NCBI RefSeq assembly: GCF_030499515.1 | Contig: NZ_JASTWJ010000001.1 | Location: 2,356,001 to 2,420,000, forward strand | From: Streptomyces sp. DT2A-34 | GTDB lineage: Bacteria > Actinomycetota > Actinomycetes > Streptomycetales > Streptomycetaceae | Length of the DNA stretch: 64,000 nucleotides | Direction of reading: 5' to 3' | Shown here: positions 35,630 through 37,067 of the stretch, piece after piece | Position numbering within the stretch: the stretch's first letter is position 1 | Layout: every line of letters starts with the position of its first letter | Notes under the pieces: generated by a model | Told to the model about the DNA's origin: nothing | The model's input: only the letters and a program-made list of their open reading frames with translations | The model's database searches: none | Made by a program: the position numbers and the translations under genes

Positions 35630-35668
35630 ACTCACTGTCACTCTGCGGTCCGCATAGTGACAGTGAGT
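35630..35668. promoter_or_regulatory. 39-bp palindrome at the cysteine dioxygenase promoter
   Basis: Perfect 13-bp arms ACTCACTGTCACT (35630-35642) and AGTGACAGTGAGT (35656-35668) around a partly symmetric centre (ctgcggtccgcat). The right arm touches the first base of the -35 box. It could be an operator, or the terminator of the monooxygenase gene that ends 94 bases upstream. Confidence 0.6.
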
Positions 35669-35696
35669 TGACCGGTTCGCACCGTCATGGTGTACT
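35668..35696 (+). promoter_or_regulatory. promoter of the leader peptide - cysteine dioxygenase transcript
   Basis: TTGACC (35668-35673), 17-base spacer, TGTACT (35691-35696): a good housekeeping-sigma promoter. The expected start site, about 7 bases after the -10, falls at 35703-35704, on the ATG of the leader ORF. Confidence 0.6.
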
Positions 35697-35703
35697 CCCG
35701 ACC

Positions 35704-35790
35704 ATGACCGACACCTGTGTGCGCCTGTGGCGGAGGGTCCATATGGACCTCGTCCGCTATGCGGGCTGCGTGTGTCGCCCGTCCTGCTGA
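35704..35790 (+). CDS. cysteine-rich leader peptide
   Basis: An ORF of 28 codons from the ATG at 35704, or 15 codons from the internal ATG at 35743, which has GGAGGG 5 bases upstream. The short form is MDLVRYAGCVCRPSC: three Cys in the last seven residues before the stop. Short Cys-rich leader peptides of this style precede sulfur-metabolism genes in actinobacteria. In mycobacteria such upstream ORFs act by stalling when cysteine is scarce. Here it precedes cysteine dioxygenase and rhodanese, so it probably senses cysteine. The 35704 start would be leaderless, given the promoter position. Confidence 0.72.
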   Translation: MTDTCVRLWRRVHMDLVRYAGCVCRPSC

Positions 35791-35884
35791 ACTCGCACCC
35801 CTTTTCTTCCGCGCGCGCCACGCCTGCCGCCTTGTCGCCTCTGCTGTCGCGCGCTCTTGGCGAACTCTCATCAGGACGGTCCCC

Positions 35885-36451
35885 GTGTCTGTATTCCCTG
35901 CCGCCGTTGCCGCTTCTCAACAGGTTTCCGCGGCCCTCTCCACCTCCACGCCGGTTTCCACGCCGACGCAGGCGGACCTTTTCGACTTCGTACGGCGTAC
36001 TGCCGCCGACGCCGACTTGATCGCCTCGCTCCCGCTCGACCCCGAGGGCCGTACCTGGGTACGGCTCGAGGGCCCCGGCGGCAGCGAGGCCTGGCTGATC
36101 GGCTGGCCGCCCGGGACGGGCACCGGCTGGCACGACCACGCCGACTCGGTCGGGGCCTTCGTTACGGCGGCCGGTGAGCTCAAGGAGAACGCACTCGCCG
36201 TCCGGCTGCCCGCCGACGGCTGGAAGACGTTGGAACTGACGGACGACGTGGACCGGGAACGCCGGCTGCCGGCGGGAAAGGGCCGCTCCTTCGGCCGCCA
36301 CCATGTGCACGAGGTCCTCAACGAGTCGGCCGACCGGCATGCGATCTCCGTTCACGTCTACTACCCGCCCCTGCCACGGATCCGCCGCTTCAGCCGGAGC
36401 GGACCGATCCTGCGCCTGGAGCAGGTGGAGCGTCCGGAGGACTGGCAGTGA
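35885..36451 (+). CDS. cysteine dioxygenase
   Basis: Oxidises cysteine to cysteine sulfinate. A 188-aa cupin with the iron-binding pattern GTGWHDHADSVGAF (two His) and the later GRHHVHEVLNES (third His), followed by HAISVHVYYPPLP. I start at the GTG at 35885, with AGGACGG upstream; the N-terminal 30 residues are poorly conserved. The stop overlaps the next ORF (GTGA). Expression is probably tied to the leader peptide about 95 bases upstream. Confidence 0.85.
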   Translation: MSVFPAAVAASQQVSAALSTSTPVSTPTQADLFDFVRRTAADADLIASLPLDPEGRTWVRLEGPGGSEAWLIGWPPGTGTGWHDHADSVGAFVTAAGELKENALAVRLPADGWKTLELTDDVDRERRLPAGKGRSFGRHHVHEVLNESADRHAISVHVYYPPLPRIRRFSRSGPILRLEQVERPEDWQ

Positions 36452-36591
36452 GCGGAGCGGAGGATCCTTCGGTGTACGGCTTGAGGCAACGGCCGGTCGG
36501 CGGGGGTGAGTTGACGGCGAGCGGTGTGAACGGCGTGAGCGAGGAGCAGTCGACCGAGGAGCCGTCGGTCGGCGGGGCGAGTCGAAGGTGA
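36448..36591 (+). CDS. 47-aa coupled ORF between cysteine dioxygenase and rhodanese
   Basis: A GTG-started 48-codon frame whose GTG overlaps the cysteine dioxygenase TGA (GTGA) and whose TGA overlaps the first rhodanese GTG (GTGA again). The product is VSGAEDPSVYGLRQRPVGGG followed by a Glu/Ser/Gly-rich tail, with no domain. It lies within imperfect tandem repeats that continue into the rhodanese N-terminus. It could be a real coupling peptide, or the shifted remnant of a longer rhodanese N-terminus. Confidence 0.4.
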   Translation: MSGAEDPSVYGLRQRPVGGGELTASGVNGVSEEQSTEEPSVGGASRR

Positions 36592-37067
36592 GCGGCGTGA
36601 GTGAGCCGCCGGTCGGCGGGAGTGAGTCGAAGGTGGGCGTGGGCGGCGTGGAGGGCGATGCCGACCGGCCGGTCGGCATCGACGAACTGCTGGAGCGGGT
36701 GCGCGCGGGGTACACGCGGATCGAGCCACGGGAGGCGTACGAGGCCGCCCAGGCCGGTGAGGCTCTGCTGGTCGACATCCGGTACGCGGCCCTGCGCGAG
36801 CGGGACGGACTGATCCCCGGCGCCCTCGTCGTCGAGCGCAACGAACTCGAGTGGCGGCTCGACCCGCAGGGCAGCCATCGCGCCCCCGAGGCAACGAGTC
36901 ACGGCCTGCGGGCCGTGGTCATCTGCAACGAGGGCTACGCATCGAGCCTGGCGGTCGAGTCACTACGGCGACTTGGGCTGCACCGGGCGACCGATCTGGT
37001 CGGGGGGTTCCAGGCTTGGCGGGCGGAGGGGCTTCCGGTGACGCCGGGGGCGGGAGCGGGGGCTTAG
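36588..37067 (+). CDS. rhodanese-like sulfurtransferase
   Basis: A 159-aa single rhodanese domain after a 40-residue Gly/Val-rich linker. Active-site loop VICNEGYASSLA holds the catalytic cysteine, preceded by EALLVDIRYAALRERDGLIPGALVVERNELE in the family pattern. Start GTG at 36588 is coupled to the preceding ORF; a GTG at 36597 with GAAGG 8 bases upstream is the alternative. Probably handles sulfane sulfur linked to cysteine breakdown by the upstream dioxygenase. Confidence 0.87.
   Translation: MSGVSEPPVGGSESKVGVGGVEGDADRPVGIDELLERVRAGYTRIEPREAYEAAQAGEALLVDIRYAALRERDGLIPGALVVERNELEWRLDPQGSHRAPEATSHGLRAVVICNEGYASSLAVESLRRLGLHRATDLVGGFQAWRAEGLPVTPGAGAGA

Follow-up and report, generated by a model that had tools for sequence, protein, structure and literature searches.

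The cysteine dioxygenase gene cdo1 of Streptomyces sp. DT2A-34 lies behind a short leader ORF with conserved Cys codons, and this leader probably acts, like its mycobacterial counterparts, as a translational attenuator that responds to cysteine and is turned ON when cysteinyl-tRNA is short.

A leaderless-type leader ORF in front of cdo1

In the window, by which we mean the whole 64,000-nt stretch of DNA that was analysed, the leader ORF MTDTCVRLWRRVHMDLVRYAGCVCRPSC runs on the + strand from its ATG at 35704 to 35790 and has 28 codons, with three cysteines (C22, C24 and C28) among its last seven residues. The promoter TTGACC-17-TGTACT (35668..35696, + strand) precedes it, with TTGACC at 35668-35673, a 17-nt spacer, TGTACT at 35691-35696 and 7 nt more to the ATG at 35704. 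The same layout (TTGA, 17/18 nt, T[GC]TA[CA]T, 6/7 nt, start codon) was found in 80/80 sequences, window included; a generic sigma-70 scan gave no flag on this promoter. Judging from the promoter spacing, transcription is predicted to start at or next to 35704.

Regarding its family, the leader matches the NF042934 profile (putative leader peptide, NCBIfam) with 37.1 bits, above the curated cut-off of 27, and residues 6-24 align to positions 1-19 of the 19 in the profile. A match to NF042933, the Ms5788A Cys-rich leader, was weak (17.9 bits, below the cut-off of 45). The closest NF042933 match in this genome is another leader, L086, which stands before a rhodanese-domain sulfurtransferase gene and reaches 41.1 bits, also below that cut-off. 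The leader region had no Rfam match at the gathering score; two sub-threshold matches gave 17 and 16.9 bits versus 62 and 42.5. The promoter, the 28-codon ORF, its three terminal Cys, an internal ATG with a GGAGG and a 39-bp palindrome had been pointed out in an earlier sequence-only reading of this DNA, and all of them are in the sequence. The proposal made there of a leaderless-type Cys leader before cdo agrees with the NF042934 match and with the conservation in Streptomycetaceae.

Downstream, cdo1 (35885..36451, + strand; Pfam PF05995, E 3.7e-51) begins with a GTG at 35885, 5 nt after the Shine-Dalgarno (SD) region CAGGACGG (35872..35879, + strand). By eye, the encoded protein carries the Arg typical of true cysteine dioxygenases. 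Further downstream lies a gene for a rhodanese-domain protein (36588..37067, + strand; Pfam PF00581), which is perhaps co-transcribed with cdo1 in one operon. The window also holds a recA-like ORF near the cdo locus.

Leader and cdo are conserved together

The sequence-only reading had named conservation across Streptomyces genomes as a check. We found the leader whole in 79 of the best 80 cdo loci out of 479 relatives; these 80 (79 from Streptomyces and one from 'Actinobacteria bacterium OV320') are the nearest kin and no random sample. The leader starts with GTG in 64 and with ATG in 16 of 80 sequences, window included. At locus L032, a sequence that by eye resembles an IS200/IS605 transposase end replaces the promoter and codons 1-13, and codons 14-28 are left.

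When 200 Streptomycetaceae genomes were searched, 129 gave a leader match with E<=0.1, weak matches included. From the lower-scoring matches in this family we picked by hand 20 more distant places, mostly weaker, and cdo was downstream of the leader in 20/20. For genus g7 we compiled 23 places (three of these 20, and 20 more); a pattern found the leader in 21/23 and cdo was behind it in 21/21. On a broader scale, 7/149 genomes sampled across the phylum had a strong NF042934 match (E<=1e-4), and 154/197 genomes of the class had a match to NF042933 (E<=0.01), 28 of them above the cut-off. In all the conservation counts given here the sequences share ancestry, so they are not independent events, and loci L063 (altered SD), L080 (long gap), and L025 and L077 (two extra codons) are excluded from some of them. 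In open-licence PMC text we found no paper on a cysteine leader ahead of cdo.

The other cdo gene of this genome (PF05995) is behind the leader MLANLALTSTRTAGSLGAAHVRCSCCCCSSC and a terminator-like hairpin (0.4 expected by shuffling). A Cys-rich leader was present at 30/30 fetched cdo2 loci, this genome's included (L139/L180 for this genome, and L181-L209); of the 61 genomes searched, 58 gave a hit, and these 30 loci rank best among them. The cdo2 leader is also of the leaderless type, and its N-terminal part is unrelated to the cdo leader. Two unrelated Cys leaders, one on each of the two cysteine dioxygenases, suggest that selection acts on the control of this step by cysteine. SCO3035 of S. 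coelicolor is presumably Cdo2.

The leader end is predicted to pair with the Shine-Dalgarno region of cdo

Within codons 26-28, the leader carries an anti-SD, CCGUCCUG (35779..35786, + strand), complementary to the cdo SD CAGGACGG. Each of the eight pairs is formed in 83-90 of 90 sequences, versus 25-56% for slid controls. The arrangement AGGACGG, 5 or 6 nt, start codon occurs in 79/80 sequences; since the SD was picked by its own motif, its conservation is not independent evidence, and that of the leader side is. Single-sequence ensembles gave pairing of the SD to codons 26-28 a mean probability of 0.78 (n=78; above 0.5 in 65/78, and 0.996 in the window), and its pairing to codons 21-24 a probability of 0.01. 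An unguided consensus fold of the 78 aligned sequences kept a hairpin over codons 9-19 (hairpin A) but set the SD against codons 21-23, not 26-28. Compensating changes in the anti-SD/SD pairing are few: a leader U-to-C change paired with an SD A-to-G change was seen in 3/90 sequences, all from one lineage. Sequestration of the downstream SD by leader codons is predicted for these loci, and 0/3 g7 loci show it.

Codon usage in the leader is constrained as well. Codons 22 (TGC) and 24 (TGT), at 35767..35775 on the + strand, encode Cys in 78/78 sequences each, and codon 24, our proposed control codon, is TGT in 78/78. Codons 10 (CGG) and 12 (GTC) are fixed to the same extent, codon 11 is AGG in 69/78, and codon 5 encodes Cys in 58/78. 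Over conserved degenerate columns, the mean top-codon fraction was 0.944 for the leader (19 columns) versus 0.810 for cdo (121 columns) at the same loci, and the leader's value was reached in 0/20000 resamples.

Two other pairings were considered and not adopted. A CGGGC/GCCCG hairpin that surrounds C22-C24 forms its five pairs in 80-87 of 90 sequences and could reverse the sign of control; by eye it is broken in the L048/L059 lineage, and it overlaps the anti-SD. In some folds leader codons 3-4 paired with the start codon of cdo, a pairing that was not evident by eye in other genera. Between the leader and cdo1 we found no intrinsic terminator; a Rho site is conceivable in the C-rich sequence behind the leader's stop codon.

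Hairpin A (35728..35759, + strand) is predicted to bury the internal ATG at 35743 and the GGAGG located 6 nt ahead of it in the window. Its 14 pairs have 97.5% of cells paired over 90 sequences, most pairs are invariant, and codons 13/14 mostly co-change as CAT-ATG or CAC-GTG (CTG in L048 and L059). At the level of the alignment, the pattern of this putative hairpin is one of constraint more than covariation.

A modelled switch at the cysteine codons

We computed the cost of opening the SD for each ribosome position, assuming a footprint of -15 to +15 from the P-site codon. Without a ribosome the mean cost (n=78) was 11.0 kcal/mol; it was 10.7 when codon 21 occupied the A site, 8.9 for C22, 6.6 for C24 and 5.5 for the stop codon. 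For the window alone the corresponding values were 11.6, 12.3, 10.5, 6.9 (the lowest) and 7.7 kcal/mol. A ribosome paused at codon 5 did not open the SD (model mean, 11.5). In the model, the drop in SD-opening cost falls at the conserved Cys codons.

The drop was also found in other leaders. A fall of at least 3 kcal/mol was obtained in 9/12 evaluable distant cdo loci (the fall was small in L102 and virtually nil in L099 and L103), and a fall of at least 2.5 kcal/mol in 4/5 evaluable mycobacterium-like Ms5788A leaders. In the model, the fall was absent in 3/3 g7 loci, and among the three evaluable paralogue leaders of this genome two had no fall and one a slight one. From these counts we excluded L105 and L086 because of the D position, and L116 and L119, in which no SD was found by pattern. 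The cdo2 leaders gave no SD switch in the model at 29 loci (L192 left out), so not every Cys leader has the switch. Given that the fall is limited to some leaders, others must act in other ways.

Genus g7 (L107-L109 and L142-L159) keeps leader and cdo without the CCGUCC anti-SD. There, the first 8 nt of the leader, GUGAACGG, match CCGUUCAC after the stop codon, with paired changes GUGAGUGG/CCGCUCAC and GUGAAUGG/CCAUUCAC; the best match was 6-8 of 8 in 21 loci, versus 5-8 for three control segments together. The g7 leader perhaps has a different output.

In the mechanism that we propose, transcription would begin on the leader ATG or right beside it, so that ribosomes would load on the 5' end of the transcript. 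With no ribosome near the leader end, codons 26-28 are modelled to pair with the SD, and cdo would be poorly translated. When charged tRNA-Cys is short, ribosomes would pause once the codon 24 UGU fills the A site, and also slightly earlier, at C22; one that is held at codon 24 would cover the anti-SD, the SD would open and cdo would be translated. The level of cdo mRNA may rise too, via less early termination or decay. Hairpin A would conceal the internal ATG and may set the order in which the RNA folds. The predicted sign is cdo ON in cysteine shortage or thiol oxidation.

The UGU codon in the wider leader family

The TGT at codon 24 corresponds to position D+9 of a [VM]DL motif shared by many leaders. 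By script we examined 157 leaders, a count that skipped L117, L131 and L132, in which the motif was not recognised, and the D+9 codon was TGT in 155/155 of those with Cys there. The Cys codon at D+7 was TGC in 126/135, and the Cys codons counted in coding sequences were TGC in 46 cases and TGT in 4. In a further, partly overlapping set, D+9 was TGT in 22/23 leaders and TGA in the remaining one. As the downstream genes and the flanking bases differ, the identity of the D+9 codon itself seems to be selected, and the D+9 UGU seems to mark the control codon. Leaders L087, L169 and L235 (RRHIDL.RVC) have no Cys codon at D+9 and carry AGT, AGC or a TGA stop instead.

In this genome, NF042934-type leaders (L081, L083-L086 and L088-L090) stand before cysteine synthase, nitrite/sulfite reductase and rhodanese-type genes and, by eye, also before sulfonate-type transport and flavin genes. 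Genes of the cysI, cysA and cysM kinds (nitrite/sulfite reductase, rhodanese-type sulfurtransferase and cysteine synthase, respectively) have NF042934 leaders both here and in G381, the genome of locus L021. G381 belongs to S. violaceoruber, presumably a close relative of S. coelicolor.

We keep nascent-chain-assisted pausing open, since several members have one Cys only and the core peptide is kept with differing codons. On a tentative reading, to which we give clearly less than even weight, NF042934 leaders would differ from plain codon-run attenuators and be cysteinyl-tRNA-gated pausing peptides in which the conserved stretch R.H[VM]DL.R, placed in the exit tunnel, slows the ribosome as the wobble-read D+9 UGU comes into the A site. 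Streptomycetaceae would have placed cdo under this switch, and Streptomyces would have placed cdo2 under an unrelated Cys-rich leader. If this were true, a single Cys codon could suffice to sense cysteine, and cysteine oxidation to sulfite would rise with sulfur assimilation in shortage or thiol oxidation.

Palindrome and promoter-side box

The 39-bp near-perfect palindrome (35630..35668; 19+1+19) has 19-nt arms that are 95% (18/19) complementary. Its right arm touches the -35 element, whose first T doubles as the final base of the palindrome. The outer arms are complementary at 10/13 or more positions in 39/80 sequences versus 6/1600 shuffles, and they co-change, with 27 distinct arm pairs. 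Directly upstream of the -35 lies a 20-bp box, GTCCRCATRGTGACNGTGAG (35648..35667, + strand), a candidate regulator site. This box is kept at 15/20 or better in 36/41 sequences without the palindrome (left arm gone). Of the more distant loci in which leader and cdo are both retained, 12/13 lack the box (12/20 or fewer), five of these belonging to the same genus. When at most 3 mismatches are allowed, the box plus TTGA has a single place in this genome; of two looser box patterns, one gave 2 places and the other 4, the latter at control level (3 for the reversed pattern).

The palindrome at the promoter described in the sequence-only reading is thus real, but it is dispensable, the promoter-side half being what non-palindromic sequences keep, and no tie to the leader mechanism was seen. 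The palindrome/box seems to be a DNA site carried by part of the genus. An RNA reading of the palindrome was set aside: G.T prevails over A.C by 17 to 6 pair cells, about half of them at the arm ends, and the position fixed to the promoter favours a DNA site over RNA. A role of the palindrome as terminator of the upstream gene is less likely, as no T run was seen. The NdgR operator motif [GT]T[CT]CAC[CA][CTA][TC][GC][TC]GGAC (PMC4340878) was not found at the box; by eye, its GTCC half fits.

Published expression data

In S. coelicolor exposed to H2O2, SCO5772, named as a putative cysteine dioxygenase (PMC3087709), is reported to rise 8.0-fold together with cysI, cysA, cysM, metN and SCO3035 (PMC4991794, Table 1). 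The change is one of mRNA, and no gene is reported there to have risen above the threshold in a mutant without hbpS-senS-senR (PMC4991794). SigB is reported to raise cysIHCDN, cysM and cysA, and NdgR to bind upstream of cysA, cysM and cysI (PMC4340878). Hence, one could argue that the co-expression may stem from shared transcription factors, because the rise occurs at the mRNA level and depends on hbpS-senS-senR, and SigB is reported to act on cys genes. For the sulfate-to-cysteine genes, the rise under oxidative stress is described as not NdgR-dependent and another system as expected, and the authors propose HbpS-SenS-SenR (PMC4991794). The related leaders on these genes would be a further candidate for part of that rise.

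Regarding feather cultures, another Streptomyces is reported to have its two cdo genes and cysD/NC/C/H raised at 96 h, with cysM unchanged (PMC12763843), and in strain SCUT-3 two cdo genes are reported up 50.2- and 8.3-fold in feather medium (PMC7181669). Feather medium is perhaps a cysteine-rich condition, which would count against a leader that is ON in shortage.

Sign and level of control

The sequence-only reading had suggested that the direction of control may be opposite to that of the mycobacterial leaders. With the same leader, cdo would then be coupled to completed leader translation: with plentiful cysteine, ribosomes would reach the stop codon and the SD would be open, and starvation would halt them at C5 or C22, before the anti-SD, turning cdo OFF. 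Such a sign suits a catabolic enzyme, and it is metabolically odd to induce a cysteine-destroying enzyme when cysteine is scarce; besides, it fits the rise of the cdo genes in feather medium (PMC7181669). The model also leaves it some room, given that a ribosome with the stop codon in its A site opens the SD even more, on average, than one at C24 (5.5), while a pause at codon 5 gives no opening (11.5) and one at C22, which comes before C24, hardly opens the SD in the window (10.5 vs 11.6). Against it, codon 5 is not always Cys, whereas C24, where a pause opens the SD, is invariant, always UGU and the most open position in the window. Mycobacterium-like leaders of the same geometry have been reported as cysteine attenuators in which stalling unmasks the SD (PMC13236596), and the cdo orthologue rises alongside cysteine-biosynthesis genes. 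Taken together, the modelled switch, the mycobacterium-like loci and the published co-expression favour the sign of a biosynthetic leader, so we consider the opposite sign rather unlikely and place the same-sign reading well ahead of it.

Control could lie instead at the promoter, with a regulator on the 20-bp box or the palindrome next to the -35 and a leader of little effect. The persistence of the box in most palindrome-less sequences and the co-changing arms speak for such a regulator, as do the published hbpS-senS-senR dependence of the mRNA changes (PMC4991794) and the action of SigB and NdgR around the cys genes (PMC4340878). Yet the box is missing in nearly all the distant loci that keep leader and cdo, its strict form occurs once in the genome and its looser form at control level, half of the published NdgR motif fits and no more, and the conservation of the leader codons and of the anti-SD would be left unexplained; we regard this alternative as quite improbable. 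We give almost no credence to the two nested starts of the sequence-only reading, in which codon 1 and the ATG at 35743 would both initiate and provide two levels of sensing. In their favour are the GGAGG in the window and codon 14 itself, an ATG in 72 of the 80 sequences (window included). The other eight have GTG (six) or CTG (two), however, ATG was seen in 0/20 more distant loci (one has CTC), and the codon, with its GGAGG, is predicted to be buried in hairpin A. Because of this poor conservation and predicted burial, the nested starts were rejected.

Comparison with known systems

The best-known attenuators control the synthesis of the amino acid that they sense. In the present case the two cysteine dioxygenase genes of a streptomycete, whose products destroy cysteine, carry Cys leaders, and the cdo orthologue is reported to rise with the biosynthetic genes, which makes a paradox under the attenuator that we favour. 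Possible reasons to oxidise scarce cysteine are the supply of sulfite for sulfitolysis, redox defence and sulfur recycling.

In the E. coli tryptophanase operon, tnaC senses free tryptophan, arrests at its stop codon and masks Rho action. Like the cdo leader, it is a leader peptide that precedes a catabolic operon for the amino acid to be sensed; it differs in that the cdo leader has conserved Cys codons, an SD pairing and a predicted sign opposite to that of tnaC. Closer in lineage, the S. lividans attenuators alaL, ilvL, thrL, trpL1/2, leuL1/2 and metL, most of them described as leaderless (PMC8079986), are likewise leader peptides in a streptomycete; in the accessible text of that source, none of the eight is called a cysteine leader or placed before cdo. 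The S. lividans metN leader metL, called methionine-dependent, ends in ARCMCRRMCAF (PMC8079986, Table 4). This end has a CxCRxxC pattern like that of the cdo leader, and metL may be a cysteine leader.

The cysteine response of mycobacterial leaders was reported by Canestrari et al. 2020 (PMC13236596, PMC9031893, PMC9094748). The cdo leader shares with the Ms5788A type (NF042933) a leaderless-type short ORF, the RR..VDL.R core, Cys at D+7 and D+9 and, in the model, an effect of the leader end on the downstream SD. Unlike that type, it stays at 17.9 bits versus the cut-off of 45, has separated Cys and no run of them, uses Pro-Ser-Cys codons as its anti-SD and precedes a gene whose product degrades cysteine. 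With the NF042934 leaders it shares a score above the cut-off over all 19 positions and the same UGU at D+9; elsewhere in this genome, members of the family lie before different sulfur genes, and several of these leaders have a single Cys.
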